NCBI GenBank assembly: GCA_023511625.1
Contig: JAIMBD010000002.1
Location: 248,001 to 312,000, forward strand
From: Bacillota bacterium
Lineage (GTDB): Bacteria > Bacillota > Sulfobacillia > Sulfobacillales > Sulfobacillaceae
Direction of reading: 5' to 3'
Length of the DNA: 64,000 nt
In this document: positions 13,263 through 44,319 of the stretch, in pieces
How positions within the stretch are numbered: position 1 is the first letter of the stretch
Layout: each line of letters begins with the position of its first letter
Notes under the pieces: generated by a model
What the model was told of the DNA's origin: nothing
What the model saw: the letters and a program-made list of their open reading frames with translations, nothing else
The model's database searches: none
Program-made: the position numbers and the translations under genes

Positions 13263-14111
13263 GTGCAACGGCCGTCCTCGGTGGAAGTGGTGACATGGCT
13301 GAACCTCGACCTTAGAGGCGAACACGACGCCATCGTGCACTACCTGCAACACGCTTGGGTGCTCAGCCCTTGGGGGCCTACCATCATGGCCATTGCCCGC
13401 GACGAGATGCGCCACCTGAAGTGGCTGGCGCATACCATCGTCCGGCTGGGCGGTACCCCGGACCTGACGCCTCCCCCCATCCGTCGCGATGCCGATCCGC
13501 TGGCCCAAGACGAGGCCGCCGAAGCCGTAGCCATCGAACAGTACCGCCGGCATCGAGCGGATATTCCCGACCCTGCCATTCAGTCCCTACTCGATCGCAT
13601 CGTAATCGACGAGGAAGATCACCTGCGCCAATTTCGCGCCCTGCGGGAGAAAGCAGGTGCCGTACCGCTGGCCCCATCCTCCGAGTTGGACCCCGAAGCC
13701 CGGGCATTCCAACCGTCCCTGACGCAGTTAATGGGGTGCGAATACGCCGCCGTGCTGTCGGCCTTACACCGCGCTTTCCAACGGCTCCCCGCACCGCGGA
13801 CCGGCATCGACTGGGAAGACCAGGCGGTCGAAGAGATGCATCACCTGAGCTGGGCGGCCGAGACCTTGGCGCGTCACGGCCTGACGCCGGAATGGCCCGA
13901 ACCCGCCCCTGGAGACAGCCGGGATGAGGCCCAACGATGGGAAATGTTGGCGCGGGCCGCCCATGCCTGGGATCCCGAAGCGGCGGCGCTGGCGCACCGC
14001 GCCGCACGGCGAGAAGCCCTCGAGGCCCATCCGCCGCGCCGCGACCGCAGTGCCACCGTCGGTTCTCTGGCTACTGGTCGGGATTGGGTCGAGGAGGAGG
14101 TCCGCCCCTGA
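13263..14111 (+). CDS. Encapsulated ferritin-like iron cargo protein, 282 aa
   Basis: A helical di-iron protein. Carboxylate/His pairs appear at E20 with E48xxH51 and at E92 (region 84-92) with E117xxH120, the four-helix ferritin-like set. A third set follows at E160 with E190/E191 and H193/H194, so the protein carries one and a half ferritin-like units. Near the C-terminus, residues 264-269 read ATVGSL, resembling the TVGSL-type loading peptide of Firmicute iron-mineralising encapsulin cargo, followed by 13 further residues. The encapsulin shell gene overlaps its stop codon. The inferred role is iron oxidation and storage inside the shell. GTG at 13263 has AAAAGGAGG nine bases upstream. Confidence 0.85.
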   Translation: MQRPSSVEVVTWLNLDLRGEHDAIVHYLQHAWVLSPWGPTIMAIARDEMRHLKWLAHTIVRLGGTPDLTPPPIRRDADPLAQDEAAEAVAIEQYRRHRADIPDPAIQSLLDRIVIDEEDHLRQFRALREKAGAVPLAPSSELDPEARAFQPSLTQLMGCEYAAVLSALHRAFQRLPAPRTGIDWEDQAVEEMHHLSWAAETLARHGLTPEWPEPAPGDSRDEAQRWEMLARAAHAWDPEAAALAHRAARREALEAHPPRRDRSATVGSLATGRDWVEEEVRP

Positions 14112-26169: not shown

Positions 26170-26853
26170 ATGTTGCTCTTCATCGTAGACATCGACGGAA
26201 CCTTGGTCCGCGTGCAGGAAGCTTCGGGGCGCGCCCTGCGCCAGGTGTTGGAGGAATGGTATCACCTCCCCGACCCCTTCCTAGGGATCCCGCTCTCTGG
26301 ACGGACCGATCGCAACATCGTCGAGGCCATCTGCCGGCGCTACGGATTACCCCTGCCGGATTGGCCGCCATTCATTGCCCGCATGGCGGAACATCTCGCG
26401 CGCGAGTTGGCCCGTACACCCGGTTCGCTGTGCCCGGCAGCCGACGCCTTCGCGGCCCAGGCCCACCGACATCCCGATGTCCGCTTGGCCTTGGGCACGG
26501 GCAACTTCCGCACCTGCGCCTATCTCAAACTGGCCGCCCATCGGCTCGACGGTTATTTCCCCGTCGGCGGGTTCGGCGAAGATGGCCCGGACCGCGCTGC
26601 GGTGTTGCGCCAGGCTTGGCGGGCAGCAGCCGCCTATTACGGCCTGACTGCCGCCGACCCGGTGGTGATCGGCGACACGCCCCTCGACGTGGAAGCGGCT
26701 CATGCCGCAGGGTTCCCATGCATCGGGGTGGCCACTGGCCATTTTCGTCCCGCCGAGCTTCAGGCCGCTTCGCCGGATGCCCTGATCGAAGACCTCTCCC
26801 AGGTATGGGAGGCCCTGAAGGCGATCCCCCTGAGATCGTCATCGCGCTTTTAA
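26170..26853 (+). CDS. HAD-superfamily phosphatase, 227 aa
   Basis: The HAD core is clear: LFIVDIDGTLV (nucleophile and acid Asp), a helical cap (about residues 18-85), LALGTGNFRTCAYLKL (motif II Thr), and VVIGDTPLDVEAAHAAG (motif IV). The order and size resemble phosphoglycolate phosphatase / Gph-type enzymes. As the last gene of the pentose-phosphate operon it could hydrolyse a damaged or over-accumulated sugar phosphate or 2-phosphoglycolate, which is inference from context. ATG at 26170 is preceded by GGATGGAGG. A hairpin follows the stop. Confidence 0.85.
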   Translation: MLLFIVDIDGTLVRVQEASGRALRQVLEEWYHLPDPFLGIPLSGRTDRNIVEAICRRYGLPLPDWPPFIARMAEHLARELARTPGSLCPAADAFAAQAHRHPDVRLALGTGNFRTCAYLKLAAHRLDGYFPVGGFGEDGPDRAAVLRQAWRAAAAYYGLTAADPVVIGDTPLDVEAAHAAGFPCIGVATGHFRPAELQAASPDALIEDLSQVWEALKAIPLRSSSRF

Positions 26854-26856
26854 CCA

Positions 26857-26890
26857 GAAGAGGCCGGAGCGGTCGCCGCTCGGCCTCTTC
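26857..26890. terminator. Terminator hairpin at end of pentose-phosphate operon
   Basis: GAAGAGGCC (26857-26865) pairs with GGCCTCTTC (26882-26890); after a one-base bulge the inner GAGCGG (26867-26872) pairs with CCGCTC (26876-26881) around a TCG loop. This gives about 15 bp of stem between convergent transcripts. A short TTCCTTC follows on the plus strand. Confidence 0.7.
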
Positions 26891-26903
26891 CTTCGGCCAC
26901 GGG

Positions 26904-27047
26904 TTACGCGCGCGCGTTAATCCCGCAGTTGCAGGTAGGACAATCACAATCCTCGGCGCAGTGACAGTCATGCTCGCAGGTGTCTTGGCGGCACTGCCCG
27001 CAGCAACACCCGCCCTGAGCCAGGCTCCAATCGGCTTCTCGCTCCAT
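26904..27047 (-). CDS. Cys-rich metallothionein-like peptide, 47 aa
   Basis: The peptide has 11 Cys (positions 14-16, 19, 24, 28, 30, 34, 36, 39, 41) and 2 His (26, 29) between a 13-residue leader and a GINARA tail. The Cys are arranged as CCC, CxxC, CxC and similar pairs (for example CEHDCHC and CDCPTCNCG), with many Asp/Glu. This composition is that of a metallothionein or another cluster-type metal-binding peptide. I cannot name the exact family. ATG at 27047 has AGGAGG at five bases. It lies 80 bp downstream of the molybdenum hydroxylase medium subunit on the same strand and is probably co-transcribed; possible roles are metal buffering or tolerance (inference). Confidence 0.8.
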   Translation of the reverse strand: MEREADWSLAQGGCCCGQCRQDTCEHDCHCAEDCDCPTCNCGINARA

Positions 27048-27053
27048 TGCGAC

Positions 27054-27085
27054 CTCCTGGCCGACCGCCTAGGATCGGCCAGGAG
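27054..27085 (-). promoter_or_regulatory. Hairpin sequestering the Shine-Dalgarno of the Cys-rich peptide gene
   Basis: On the minus-strand RNA, CTCCTGGCCGA (27085-27075) is exactly complementary to TCGGCCAGGAG (27064-27054), an 11-bp stem with a 10-nt loop. The 3' arm contains most of the AGGAGG ribosome site, so folding would hide it. There is no T tract, which argues against a simple terminator. Translational control (thermometer, metal or protein dependent) is an inference. Confidence 0.65.
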
Positions 27086-27127
27086 ATAGCGTGCGCCGCA
27101 GTTCGCACCGCCATGCGCCGCCGATAC

Positions 27128-27991
27128 TCAGGCCTGGATCGCGGCCCACGCCGCAGCCAGCGCCCGCTCGGCATAGGTTGCGGCCAAATGGCGCCGATAC
27201 TCCGCCGACGCGAACTGGTCGTGATTGACGGCGATGCCGTCTGTGACCACAGCGGACGCCGCACGCAAGACCTCGGGGTCCAGACCAGTCCCGACCAAGC
27301 GTTCCTCGCTGGCCGCGGCGCGATACGCCCGTGGCCCCACGCCCGTCACCCCGAGACAAACCCGCGCCACGCGGCCGGACTCGGCGGCGATGGCCGCCGC
27401 GACCCCCACCACGGCATACCCGGAGGCGGGGTGGGGAAATTTTTGATACGCGACCCCCCAGCCTGGACGTCGCGGCACGTGGATGGCCACCAACACCTCG
27501 TCGGGTTTCAGGTCGGTGGTCAAGGGGCCCTGCAGGAAGTCCCCCAAGGCGACACGGCGTTGGCCGCGGCGAGAGCGCAACTCGAGCTCGGCATCGCTGG
27601 CCAAGGCCGCCGCCGGCAGATCGGCGGCCGGATCGGCGTGGCACAAGGCACCGCCGACGGTTCCCCGGTTGCGGACCTGCAAATCGCCCACGCGGCGCGC
27701 CGCCAAGGCCAAAAGCGGAGCGTCGCGCGCCACCAAGGGGTCGGTCATCAATTCCCGGTACCGCGTCATGGCTCCGATGTGCAAGACCTCTCCTTCTTCG
27801 CGGATACCCCGAAGTTCGGCGACCTCCTCTACGTCGATCACCCACTGAGGTTGGGCCAAACGCAGTTTCATGAGCGGGATGAGACTGTGCCCGCCCGCCA
27901 AAATGCGCGCCTGACCGGGTGCCTGGGCTACGAGGTCCAACGCCTCATCCAAGCTGCGGGCGCGATGGTAGCGAAATCGCTCCGGGATCAT
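27128..27991 (-). CDS. Molybdenum hydroxylase FAD-binding medium subunit (CoxM-like), 287 aa
   Basis: Medium subunit of a xanthine-dehydrogenase-family enzyme, carrying FAD between the iron-sulfur and electron-acceptor sites. FAD motifs are ILAGGHSLIPLMKLRLAQP near residue 31 and RNRGTVGGALCHADPAADLP near residue 107, with the C-terminal CO-dehydrogenase flavoprotein domain (YAVVGVAAAIAAESGRV, CLGVTGVGPRAYR). ATG at 27991 overlaps the stop of the large subunit gene (ATGA), so the subunits are translationally coupled. The order small-large-medium differs from the medium-small-large order of classical cox operons. Confidence 0.9.
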   Translation of the reverse strand: MIPERFRYHRARSLDEALDLVAQAPGQARILAGGHSLIPLMKLRLAQPQWVIDVEEVAELRGIREEGEVLHIGAMTRYRELMTDPLVARDAPLLALAARRVGDLQVRNRGTVGGALCHADPAADLPAAALASDAELELRSRRGQRRVALGDFLQGPLTTDLKPDEVLVAIHVPRRPGWGVAYQKFPHPASGYAVVGVAAAIAAESGRVARVCLGVTGVGPRAYRAAASEERLVGTGLDPEVLRAASAVVTDGIAVNHDQFASAEYRRHLAATYAERALAAAWAAIQA

Positions 27992-30336
27992 CCTTGGGCC
28001 CCCTTTCCGTGTATCGCGCGCCACACCCGCTCCGGCGTCAAGGGCATGTCGAGGTGGCGGACGTTCCAGGGCTTGAGGGCATCTATCACCGCGTTGACCA
28101 CCGCCGGCGTGGCCGCAATGGTCCCGGTTTCCCCAACCCCCTTGACGCCCAAGGGGTTATGCGGCGAGGGGGTTACCGTGGCTTCGGTTTCGATCGGGGG
28201 AAAGAAGCGCGCTTTGGGCATCGCGTAGTCCAAGAACGAGGTGGTCAGGAGCTGGCCATCCTCGCCATAGACCGCGCCTTCCCACAGGGCCTGGCCCACT
28301 CCCTGCACGATCCCGCCGTGCACTTGACCGGCGATGATCAACGGATTGATGGGGGTACCGCAGTCGTCCACGGCGACATAGCGCTTGAGCTCCACTGCCC
28401 CGGTGGCGGGATCGACCTCCACCACGGCCACATGCGTGCCGAAGGGAAACGTGAAATTAGACGGGTTGTAGGCACTGCTGGCTTCCATCCCAGGCTCCAC
28501 CCCCGGAGGCAGGTTCCAGGCCAGATGCGCTTGAAGGGCCACCTCTTGAAATCCGAGCGACCGGTCAGGGACCCCCCGGACCTGATAACGCCCCGCCTCG
28601 AAGACCACATCCTCCACGGCCGCCTCGAGCCGGTGCGCGGCGATGCGCTGCCCCTTTTCCACCAAGCGCTGGCAGGCCACTGCCAACGCGCTGCCGCCCA
28701 CGGCCAAAGACCGCGAGCCATAGGTGCCCCACCCCATGGTAATGCGGTCGGTGTCTCCGTGGACCACCTCGATGTCTTCGAATGGCACGCCCAGCTTTTC
28801 GGCTACAATCTGGGCAAAGGTGGTCTCCTCGCCCTGGCCGTGCGGCGACGCGCCGGTGAACACCTGGACCTTGCCAGACGGGTGCACGCGAACAGTGGCG
28901 TGCTCCCACAAGCCGCCTTGAAAGCCCACCGCCCCGGCCACTTCCGAAGGTCCGAGCCCGCACATTTCCACGTAGGTGGAAAAGCCGATGCCGAGGTACC
29001 GACCTTGGGCCCGCAAGGCCGCCTGCTCCCGACGGAGCGCCGCATAGTCGATCCGCTCTAAGGCTCGTTGCAGTGCCCGCTCGTAGTCCCCGCTGTCGTA
29101 GGTGATGCCAAACGGGTTGGTGTACGGGAACTGGTCCCGGGGCACAAAATTCTTCCGCCGAACCTCGACCGGATCCATGCCTATGGCGTCGGCAAAGAGG
29201 TCGATCATCCGTTCAATTAGATAGGTGGCCTCAGGACGACCGGCGCCGCGATAGGCGTCCACCGGCGTGGTGTGCGTGTATACGCCAAAGACCTCCGTGG
29301 AGGCCTGGGGAATGCGGTAGCAGCCGTTGACGATGAGCCCAAAGAGGATGGTCGGAACGCCGGGTGCCGCCGTCGACAGGTACGCGCCAAGGTTGGCCCA
29401 GGCCTTGACCCGTAACGCCTCGATGGTCCCGTCGCGCCGTCCGGCCAACTCCACCTCTTGAACGTGGTCGCGCCCGTGCGTGGTGGCGGTGAAATGTTCG
29501 CTGCGGTCTTCCACCCACTTGACCGGGCGTCTAAGCACGCGCGCCGCATGGGCCACCAAGGCCTCATCGGGATAACAAGAGATCTTGCTCCCGAATCCAC
29601 CCCCGACGTCCTGGGCCACCACTCGCAAGTGATGTTCGGGAATTCCCAAAATTCCCGCCAAAATAAACCGGTGAATGTGCGGGTTTTGGCTGGTCATCCA
29701 TACCGTAAGGTGGCCGGTTGCGGAATCGTATTGGGCGACGGCTGCGCGGGGCTCCATGGGGTTAGGGATGAGGCGCTGCTGCCGAAACCGCTGGCGCACG
29801 ACCACCTCGGCGCGGGCAAACACCTCATCTGGCACCTCACCCGCCTTCCAGTGCAGCGCGATGTTTCCCGGTGCGTCGGCATGCACCAGCGGTGCTCCCT
29901 CGGCCACAGCCGCCATCACATCGGCCACGGCCGGCAGCGGCTCATAGTCCACCACCACGGCCTCAGCGGCATCGCGTGCTACGTAGCGGTCTTCAGCCAC
30001 GACCATCGCCACTGCGTCCCCCACGTAGCGCACGGTGTCGACTGCCAGTGGCCGGTGAGGGGTTTGTTTGAGGTCGGAATTCGGGGGAATCCACGCTGTC
30101 GGCACCGACCCCAGCACCCCTTCCAGGTCTCGGCCCGTAAACACCGCCAGCACGCCCGGCATGCCAAGAGCCCGGCTGGCGTCGATACCCCGAATGCGGG
30201 CGTGGGCATGCGGGCTGCGCACCATGACGGCATACACCATGCCCGGCAGTTGCACGTCGTCGGTAAATTGCCCGCGGCCCACCACCAAGCGCGCATCCTC
30301 ACGGCGACGCACTGGTTGTCCGATCAAGGCGTTCAT
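27988..30336 (-). CDS. Form II CoxL-type molybdenum hydroxylase large subunit, 782 aa
   Basis: Large, molybdopterin-containing catalytic subunit of the xanthine dehydrogenase / CO dehydrogenase family. Seen: VRRREDARLVVGRGQF at the start, VAQDVGGGFGSK (about 240-251), PHGQGEETTFAQI, and KGVGETGTIAATPAVVNAV with the catalytic Glu. The active-site loop at 361-367 is AYRGAGR, the form II signature. True CO-oxidising form I enzymes have AYxCSFR with the Cu-binding Cys, which is absent here, so CO oxidation is unlikely and an aromatic, heterocyclic or aldehyde substrate is more plausible. No maturation genes (coxD, coxE, coxF) are adjacent. ATG at 30336 overlaps the small-subunit stop (ATGA). Confidence 0.92.
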   Translation of the reverse strand: MNALIGQPVRRREDARLVVGRGQFTDDVQLPGMVYAVMVRSPHAHARIRGIDASRALGMPGVLAVFTGRDLEGVLGSVPTAWIPPNSDLKQTPHRPLAVDTVRYVGDAVAMVVAEDRYVARDAAEAVVVDYEPLPAVADVMAAVAEGAPLVHADAPGNIALHWKAGEVPDEVFARAEVVVRQRFRQQRLIPNPMEPRAAVAQYDSATGHLTVWMTSQNPHIHRFILAGILGIPEHHLRVVAQDVGGGFGSKISCYPDEALVAHAARVLRRPVKWVEDRSEHFTATTHGRDHVQEVELAGRRDGTIEALRVKAWANLGAYLSTAAPGVPTILFGLIVNGCYRIPQASTEVFGVYTHTTPVDAYRGAGRPEATYLIERMIDLFADAIGMDPVEVRRKNFVPRDQFPYTNPFGITYDSGDYERALQRALERIDYAALRREQAALRAQGRYLGIGFSTYVEMCGLGPSEVAGAVGFQGGLWEHATVRVHPSGKVQVFTGASPHGQGEETTFAQIVAEKLGVPFEDIEVVHGDTDRITMGWGTYGSRSLAVGGSALAVACQRLVEKGQRIAAHRLEAAVEDVVFEAGRYQVRGVPDRSLGFQEVALQAHLAWNLPPGVEPGMEASSAYNPSNFTFPFGTHVAVVEVDPATGAVELKRYVAVDDCGTPINPLIIAGQVHGGIVQGVGQALWEGAVYGEDGQLLTTSFLDYAMPKARFFPPIETEATVTPSPHNPLGVKGVGETGTIAATPAVVNAVIDALKPWNVRHLDMPLTPERVWRAIHGKGAQG

Positions 30337-30991: not shown

Positions 30992-32299
30992 TCATCCGCG
31001 TTCGGGGGAGGTCGTGGCGGCGCTGGCTCCGAGTCGCCGACCAGCCGCCTCGGCGTAGGTCAGCCATTTTTCCCCCTCGGCCAACACCACGCCCCCCGCT
31101 GCCACCCGATACCACTCGGGATGGTCCACCCCCGGAGCCGGACGACCGGCGGCAAAGGCCCGCACGGCTTGCAGCAGCCGCCGGCGCATGCGAATCACGG
31201 CCACGTCGGATACCGCCAAGTGCTCCGCCGTCCGGTCGTAGATCGGCCCCATGCTCTCAGTCACCATGTTGTCCTGCACCCGCACATCCCAAATGCCGCT
31301 GTAGGTAAGCCCCTGCCGTTGGACTTTACGGTCCAGGAGGTAGTCGTTCTCTCCGTTGGCTCGGGGAACAAACCGTCCATACCAATCGCTGGTGTTGGGC
31401 AAAAGCTCGGTGTGCACCGACGGCAGGCGCTCGGATCGCCCTTGGATCGGCCGACGCTCTGCCTGGCGCTGGTGCATCATGATGCGCAGCGTATGATGGT
31501 CGTCCATCGGCACCAGGGCGTGCGTGCCCACGTGTTGACCCAGAATGCCCGCGGGGGCCTGACTGTAGAACGGAAACAGAAACTGCGCCACCCGCCAGTA
31601 CCGCCGCCCAGGCCCCGCCGGCCGCCACGCCCCGTACGTCAGCCCATACTCGGTATCGACCACTTCATAACGCGGTGCCCGATCCGCCACCGACCAGTAG
31701 AGAAACGTGTCAGGCGTGACCTCTTCTGGCATCAGACTGCCCAGGTGCAAAAAGCCGAGATGGCTGGTATCGACGTCCCCTTCCAAGGCCTGCAGCCAAT
31801 TGCAGGCGTGCTGCACGGCCCATACCTCCGCCTCGCCCTCCGGCAGCTGATTGGCCGGCAGGTCCGGCAACGGCGGCGGCTCCGCCCGCCCCAGATACGC
31901 CCACACCACCCCACCCCGCTCGACGCACGGGTAGGCCCGGGCTCGAAGCTTATGCTTGAAATCGCTCTCCGGCGGCTCGTTCGGCATGTCCAGACACCGC
32001 CCCGCCACGTCAAACTTCCACCCGTGGTAGACGCAGCGCAGGCCTCCGGCCTCGTTCCGCCCGTAAAAGAGACTCGCCCCCCGGTGCGGGCAGTGGTTCT
32101 GAATCAAGCCCACGCGCCCCGCACTGTCTCGAAAGGCAATCAGCCGCTCCCCCAACAGCATCACCCGCACGGGGTCGCAGTCCGGGTGCGGCAGCTCCGA
32201 GGACAACAAGGCCGGAATCCAGTACGCCCGCATGAACTCCCCCATCGGCGTCCCCGGCCCCACTTCTGTCAACAGCGCGTTCTCCTCGGCACTCAGCAT
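30992..32299 (-). CDS. Rieske non-heme iron oxygenase, large (catalytic) subunit, 435 aa
   Basis: Aromatic-ring-hydroxylating or demethylating oxygenase of the phthalate 4,5-dioxygenase-like group. The Rieske centre is NHCPHRGASLFYGRNE (CxH) and LRCVYHGWKFD (CxxH) at about residues 68-100. The mononuclear iron site is LEGDVDTSHLGFLHLG (Asp and two His) near residue 180. The long C-terminal region (MMHQRQAER, DYLLDRKVQR, TYSGI, QDNMVTESMGPIYDRTAEHL) matches this group. ATG at 32299 is followed by a normal-length product. No reductase gene is adjacent. It lies between a transporter and a molybdenum hydroxylase, suggesting a shared catabolic pathway. Confidence 0.92.
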   Translation of the reverse strand: MLSAEENALLTEVGPGTPMGEFMRAYWIPALLSSELPHPDCDPVRVMLLGERLIAFRDSAGRVGLIQNHCPHRGASLFYGRNEAGGLRCVYHGWKFDVAGRCLDMPNEPPESDFKHKLRARAYPCVERGGVVWAYLGRAEPPPLPDLPANQLPEGEAEVWAVQHACNWLQALEGDVDTSHLGFLHLGSLMPEEVTPDTFLYWSVADRAPRYEVVDTEYGLTYGAWRPAGPGRRYWRVAQFLFPFYSQAPAGILGQHVGTHALVPMDDHHTLRIMMHQRQAERRPIQGRSERLPSVHTELLPNTSDWYGRFVPRANGENDYLLDRKVQRQGLTYSGIWDVRVQDNMVTESMGPIYDRTAEHLAVSDVAVIRMRRRLLQAVRAFAAGRPAPGVDHPEWYRVAAGGVVLAEGEKWLTYAEAAGRRLGASAATTSPERG

Positions 32300-43488: not shown

Positions 43489-44319
43489 GTGCATCCTTGG
43501 CTGGCTCAAGAAGCCGCCCGCTACCGCGCCACCTTGCGCCTCATCGAGGCGTTGGTGGAGGCCGGGTTTTCGCCCTTGGCCACCGACCCCACCGAGGCCG
43601 ACCACCTGCGCTTGGATCACACCCGTGCCATCGTGGAGCGGTTAGCCGCGTACGGTCCGGGCCACGTGCCGCTGCCCCTGCGGGTTTTCTCCACGGGGCC
43701 GGTTTACCAGCAAGGACATTGGGCGGACAGCGTGGATGTGGAAGTCGTGGAAGACGGCACCGTGCTCGGTGAGCCTGAAGTGTTCGCTCTCCTCCGGCGT
43801 CTGGCCGGTAACCGGGCCGACCGGGGAGAGGGGTTGGTCTTGGTTTTGGGCCATGTCGGCCTCTTGCACCGGCTGTGCGTGGAATTAGGGCTGACGGCCG
43901 ACCAGGCCCACGAGGTACGGGAGCTTCTGGCGCGCGGGAAGGTTGCCGCGGCGGCCGACTGCCTGAAAGCCGCTGATCCCCTCAGTGGACAGTGGTTGCG
44001 GCCTCTCGATCGCGCCGGCTTTTGGGATGTTGTGGTCTCCCGGCTCCGAACCTGGCCGCCGACCGTGGTCGACCCCATCCTCGCCGCTTTGGAGGCAGCC
44101 GCCGGCATCGGTCTTGAGACCCGTTGGGACCTTTCGCTCACCGGTTCGTGGCCGTATTACACCGGCGTGGTCTTCAACCTCTATCGCCGCGGTCAGGGCC
44201 AGGCGCTGGTCAAAGGCGGGCGATTTCACGTCCAAGAGGGGGCGCGGGCGTTTCACGGCGTCGGCTTCACCTTGTGGTTGGATCCGTGGTTGCAAGGCGC
44301 ACCGGCATCAAGCGTCTGA
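43489..44319 (+). CDS. hisZ: ATP phosphoribosyltransferase regulatory subunit HisZ, 276 aa
   Basis: HisZ is a histidyl-tRNA-synthetase-like protein that binds short HisG and confers histidine feedback. The class II synthetase core is seen as LRLDHTRAIVERLA, RVFSTGPVYQQGHW and the ETRWDLSLTGSWPYYTGVVFNLY motif. At 276 residues it is shorter than the usual 380-400, lacking most of the C-terminal region, so it is a minimal form. GTG at 43489 has GAGGTG at five bases. Its position directly before hisG, 12 bp away, supports the assignment. Confidence 0.88.
   Translation: MHPWLAQEAARYRATLRLIEALVEAGFSPLATDPTEADHLRLDHTRAIVERLAAYGPGHVPLPLRVFSTGPVYQQGHWADSVDVEVVEDGTVLGEPEVFALLRRLAGNRADRGEGLVLVLGHVGLLHRLCVELGLTADQAHEVRELLARGKVAAAADCLKAADPLSGQWLRPLDRAGFWDVVVSRLRTWPPTVVDPILAALEAAAGIGLETRWDLSLTGSWPYYTGVVFNLYRRGQGQALVKGGRFHVQEGARAFHGVGFTLWLDPWLQGAPASSV

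Follow-up and report, generated by a model that had tools for sequence, protein, structure and literature searches.

Bacterial metallothioneins are known mainly as metal-stress proteins. SmtA is described as controlled by the zinc repressor SmtB (PMC7387436). Csp3 of Bacillus subtilis is described as a Cys-rich cytosolic Cu(I) store with a role in sporulation (PMC9484137), and the plant type 4 metallothioneins are linked, by the title of a reference cited in PMC10603854, to zinc accumulation in the late embryo. Sulfobacillus is described as comprising spore formers of acid, metal-rich sites (PMC4378227). Concerning a metallothionein of the endospore, no report was found among the titles and abstracts of the open-access papers listed. 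The gene studied here, located in the window (the whole stretch of 64,000 nucleotides that was analysed), probably encodes such a protein, i.e. a metallothionein of an unmodelled family which, judging from its own forespore-type promoter, would be made in the developing endospore.

The gene and its product

The features of the locus are the following:

26858-26889, minus strand: terminator-like hairpin (-33.8 kcal/mol, z -3.34), 3' of the stop codon
26904-27047, minus strand: metallothionein-like open reading frame, 47 amino acids, 11 Cys; ATG at 27047
27053-27058, minus strand: Shine-Dalgarno sequence AGGAGG, read from the sequence
27055-27084, minus strand: 10-bp perfect inverted repeat overlapping the Shine-Dalgarno sequence (z -3.85)
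27087-27093, minus strand: predicted -10 element CACGCTA; transcription start expected from the spacing at about 27080
27112-27116, minus strand: predicted -35 element GCATG of a forespore (sigma-G type) promoter

The sequence-only reading of the window had pointed to a 47-residue, 11-Cys open reading frame preceded by AGGAGG, which is borne out, the strand being the minus one; it made no mention of the forespore-type promoter, the hairpin at the Shine-Dalgarno sequence or the terminator hairpin. The peptide, read from 27047 to 26904, is MEREADWSLAQGGCCCGQCRQDTCEHDCHCAEDCDCPTCNCGINARA, while the plus strand over the same interval reads LRARVNPAV..., the Cys-rich peptide thus being the minus-strand product. 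It is short and consists to 23% of Cys, with two His and with CxC, CxxC and CC motifs, a composition falling within the range (about 20-30% Cys) by which metallothioneins are recognised. Its 11 Cys residues lie within 30 positions, whereas open stretches in 40 order-2 Markov copies of the window contain no more than 5-7. The terminator-like hairpin is common to the peptide gene and the convergent HAD phosphatase gene (26170-26853, plus strand), and no Rfam RNA was found within 26700-27400.

Conservation and taxonomic distribution

A search with the window peptide revealed a copy with 74% identity at the same genomic place in a relative from the same genus, as well as weaker matches in further relatives. 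Between the window and the genus relative, dN is 0.178 and dS 1.75; dN/dS is well under 1 in all six pairs computed, silent changes greatly exceeding amino-acid changes in the family. The profile built from 12 sequences and searched across 154 genomes of the class detected the family in 29 of them, covering 27 of the 42 genomes of the window's order and only two of the 112 others. The 33 loci correspond to 32 distinct proteins, and the sequence-only reading had staked its idea of a metallothionein-type peptide on whether the Cys spacing would be kept in close relatives: the scaffold CCCx2Cx4Cx3CxCx3CxCx2CxC is present exactly in 28 of the 32. Three proteins carry three extra residues in one loop with the scaffold otherwise kept (31/32 if the insertion is allowed), and the remaining one, L295, is cut off by the contig end. 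The peptide is thus the product of a real, conserved gene with a Cys density far above chance.

In a phylum sample of 398 genomes there were two matches, both in the window's taxonomic family; an earlier profile had given three, one of them with internal stops and not accepted. A collection-wide search with a Cys-codon pattern was dominated by TGC repeats, and after filtering there were at least two true members among the matches listed, L101 and L137, both from the window's order. The third row left after that filtering, L184, consists of a W/C repeat and has been discarded. It should be pointed out that L101 (JAIMBI010000013.1) is titled Actinomycetes bacterium HOT.MB2.50, a title that looks wrong, its peptide and upstream sequence being the same as those of genome G041, a member of the window's order. 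No plasmid match to the peptide was found by tblastn. The peptide was not found in Sulfobacillus acidophilus, which belongs to the same family of bacteria (Sulfobacillaceae) as the window organism, itself taken to be a relative of Sulfobacillus; sporulation as such does therefore not require the peptide.

Promoter region

The predicted promoter spans 27087-27116. The pattern GHATR/CAnnnTA with a spacer of 16-19, which we take to be the sigma-G consensus, was scored within 100 nt upstream of the 32 distinct copies, nine of nine being a perfect score. The perfect motif was found for 21 of the 32 copies, as compared with a mean of 0.11 (maximum 1) in 100 shuffled sets, a contrast to be read with the kinship of the homologues in mind, the 32 copies representing fewer independent events. 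The -10 element lies mostly 30-40 nt from the start codon; among the 11 copies without a perfect motif, four score only 7/9. In the 64-kb window the exact form GHATR-N18-CANNCTA occurs once, at the peptide gene (expected 0.13), and its N17 form does not occur. A forespore-type element is predicted at a distance from the start codon that suits a promoter.

The third -10 position of the pattern had been relaxed after looking at the sequences, and cleaner tests are therefore provided by a matrix derived from SASP genes and by the spore gene YIEGIA. Top-scoring SASP genes fit the strict consensus weakly (3/31 at 9/9), and since many of them look sigma-F-like, a two-block matrix was trained instead of reusing the consensus, on 45 SASP upstream regions only, 6 of 51 having been dropped beforehand for uncertain starts. 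It gave a mean of 9.25 bits for the family copies versus 1.33 for shuffles. The 5% level was exceeded by 20 of the 32 copies, that of the window (7.9 bits) being barely over the threshold of 7.84. The matrix is not very specific, for 7 of 29 CsoR-family and 2 of 38 window upstream regions pass it as well. The sequence recognition of SigF and SigG is described as overlapping, with some SASP promoters nearer to SigF (PMC7438776), and sigma-G promoters are described in PMC3789822.

YIEGIA corresponds to yphB of B. subtilis, described as involved in sporulation (PMC5898192), and among 14 control genomes it has a match only in B. subtilis. Eleven of its 25 scored upstream regions reached 9/9 (null 0.05), one of the 26 loci having no usable start. 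The same score was reached by none of 29 CsoR-family upstream regions (one of 30 without a start) and by none of the 38 control upstream regions of window open reading frames. A stricter form of the motif has 12 sites in the window's genome versus 0 for the reversed control, YIEGIA being the sole firm spore gene at the 11 sites other than the peptide gene; two other genomes exhibited a small excess (22 vs 15 and 23 vs 14). The spoVA upstream regions, with 5 of 15 first genes placed and three of these carrying CATACTA, do not make a clean test. SASP genes are present in all 29 family-positive genomes, but also in 141 of the 154 class genomes, from most of which the peptide is absent, so that presence and absence link it only weakly to sporulation. 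The promoter itself appears to be of a class common to the peptide gene and spore genes.

Some further genes deserve mention here. The ferritin-like gene at 13263-14111 (plus strand, Pfam PF00210) scores highest for a SASP-type promoter among the 38 window open reading frames (15.9 bits, -10 element CACACTA); not far from the metallothionein, it is perhaps another metal gene of the forespore. The histidyl-tRNA-synthetase-like (HisZ-type) gene at 43489-44319 (plus strand) also passes the SASP matrix with 11.9 bits. Finally, L404 (G000:C37, near 48598), a 49-residue protein that has two CxxC pairs and is assigned to no family, lies 23 nt past a perfect motif of this promoter type.

Copper islands

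Three copies of the family, in G002, in G503 and as the second copy of G028, are found in copper islands, accompanied by genes for a P-type ATPase/HMA, SCO1/thioredoxin, DUF4396, CsoR or a Copper-bind protein. A P-type ATPase/HMA is present in each of L428, L430 and L429, the last one also having CsoR and a Copper-bind protein; for L428 and L430, CsoR is located farther along the same contigs. This context may be taken as the best clue for copper as the metal, at least in that group. The promoter score of these copies is likewise 9/9; spacing and distance are the usual ones in two of them, while in the third the spacer has 19 nt and the motif lies near the start codon. The motif might therefore still be tied to copper genes, although the CsoR-family upstream regions do not carry it.

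It is here that the possibility of a vegetative metallothionein for detoxification of copper (or zinc and cadmium), induced by metal stress and resembling spore genes in its promoter only incidentally, has to be weighed. The presence of CopA, HMA, CsoR, SCO1 and the Copper-bind protein in the islands of three copies would fit it, as would the metal-rich acid sites that Sulfobacillus is described to inhabit (PMC4378227). Most contexts examined are, however, devoid of adjacent metal genes, and the motif, strong before most copies as well as before YIEGIA, is lacking from the CsoR-family, i.e. metal-repressor, genes, which makes this explanation rather unlikely. The metal tolerance suggested by the sequence-only reading may thus hold for the copper-island copies, whereas for the window copy the promoter rather speaks for the forespore.

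A spore peptide that binds no metal in vivo, acting as a thiol (redox) buffer or as a disulfide-linked structural element, could also be envisaged, with Cys-rich spore surface proteins having been described (PMC6101409, PMC7333573). The promoter is, however, of the forespore (core) and not the mother-cell type, the CxC-rich spacing is of the metallothionein kind and some copies reside in copper islands; this alternative is considered improbable.

Genomic neighbourhood

On the same strand the peptide gene directly follows a CoxM-like gene (27128-28024; Pfam domains FAD_binding_5 and CO_deh_flav_C), at a distance of 80 nt from its stop, and it faces the HAD phosphatase gene. The co-orientation with a molybdenum hydroxylase operon that had been noticed from the sequence is thus confirmed. 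Directly upstream of the molybdenum hydroxylase genes, also on the same strand, there is a Rieske/LigXa_C oxygenase gene (30992-32299, minus strand).

Among the contexts examined, linkage to coxSML genes is confined to G000, the genome of the window, and G001. In the other contexts examined, outside the genus, the neighbours are murA/polysaccharide deacetylase, ctaB/GH31, lactonase/2-phosphosulfolactate phosphatase, MFS/PBP or the copper genes, and since they vary between genera, the cox link is local. The position after a coxM-like gene, where the sequence-only reading had proposed to look for the peptide in related genomes, is shared by the genus relative, with no cox adjacency in the other contexts examined. 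A role as metal chaperone, put forward in the same reading, or as assembly peptide for the molybdenum hydroxylase encoded alongside would agree with the shared strand, the short distance and the conservation in the genus relative. The tie to the oxidase cluster nevertheless finds no support beyond the genus, the other contexts examined having no adjacent cox genes and the peptide gene having its own predicted promoter and terminator; a cox-specific role has been rejected on the basis of the neighbourhoods in other genera, and the chaperone idea is highly improbable. That the short frame, unannotated according to the sequence-only reading, might be spurious is refuted by its conservation (33 homologous loci, dN/dS far below 1) together with a Cys density above the Markov null, and is hardly worth considering.

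Leader hairpin

The inverted repeat at 27055-27084 would mask the Shine-Dalgarno sequence in read-through transcripts of the cox operon, and less so in those begun near 27080. Strong in the window, such a hairpin is not so across the family (5/32 with z below -1.65, mean z -0.35), and a family-wide switch has been rejected. Occlusion of the Shine-Dalgarno sequence by sequence upstream of the predicted start exhibits a modest enrichment (8/28 at or below 0.1, expected 2.8), a similar occlusion being seen in G001, G013, G010, G041 and G503. The silencing of read-through transcripts by the window hairpin is proposed tentatively.

Proposed role in the endospore

The reading of the peptide as an endospore metallothionein starts from a real gene, its invariant Cys scaffold, a promoter of the spore-gene class and the copper-island context of three copies, and would add to these the expression in the forespore, the binding of metal, the kind of metal and the role. 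The forespore polymerase (with sigma-G, perhaps also sigma-F) would transcribe the gene, and inside the forespore the peptide would fold about Cu(I) or Zn(II), its 11 Cys wrapping a small cluster of these d10 ions. The bound metal would be buffered or stored in the spore core through dormancy, and the peptide would shield enzymes and DNA both in the dormant spore and at germination.

A more far-reaching version is conceivable, although it has to be held with some reserve. It would see a dedicated endospore metallothionein made alongside the SASPs, serving metal-exposed acidophiles as a Cu(I)/Zn(II) thiolate store or shield of the core and representing a bacterial parallel, of independent origin, to the metallothionein of plant seeds. 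In the window and in G001, G013, G010 and G041 the leader hairpin would block read-through translation, only the transcripts from the forespore promoter being translated. If true, a metallothionein programmed by the forespore would bring metal thiolate chemistry into the spore core, for which the handling of metal and the safeguarding of enzymes and DNA have long been matters of interest.

Comparison with known metallothioneins and copper-storage proteins

None of the scanned Pfam and NCBIfam models recognised the window peptide, so that the family would represent a previously unmodelled metallothionein family. Concerning the known bacterial family, PF02069 (Metallothio_Pro) gave no match for the window peptide at E up to 10 and none among the 28 family members scanned, and its cut-off was exceeded in none of the 154 class genomes. 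SmtA, BmtA and NmtA are thus similar as small Cys-rich bacterial peptides but different in that the family lacks a match to their model; membership in the known family has been rejected. The eukaryotic models gave weak matches in relatives—PF02066 (Metallothio_11) in 4 of 28, best E 0.032, and PF12749 (Metallothio_Euk) in 3 of 28, best E 0.14—and none for the window peptide.

The family profile has four matches in the PDB, all weak and all of them metallothioneins, their values being partly composition-driven; taken with the conserved Cys spacing and the three copper-island members, they support the metallothionein-type peptide that had been supposed from the sequence. The likeness appears to be one of scaffold, and no descent is claimed. 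The number of Cys residues in the peptide equals that of M4Cys11, the mammalian alpha domain count. The beta domain of mammalian MT-2 (PDB 2mhu, 2mrb and 2mrt; E 0.43 to 3.1) has the segment CxCx3CxCx2CxC in common with the family, differing in having nine Cys and no CCCxxCx4C lead.

With Csp3 the proposed peptide would share the character of a Cys-rich metal store tied to sporulation. Csp3 is, however, a four-helix bundle of the sigma-K mother cell supplying the coat laccase CotA, and thus neither a short CxC peptide nor a forespore product. The best PDB match, wheat seed Ec-1 (2kak), has the core CxCx3CxCx2C in common with the family, the N-terminal CCCxxC part of which is different; this similarity across kingdoms is very weak (E 0.018) and likely convergent. 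It is nevertheless the dormancy role of the plant type 4 seed metallothioneins that resembles the one proposed here for the window family.
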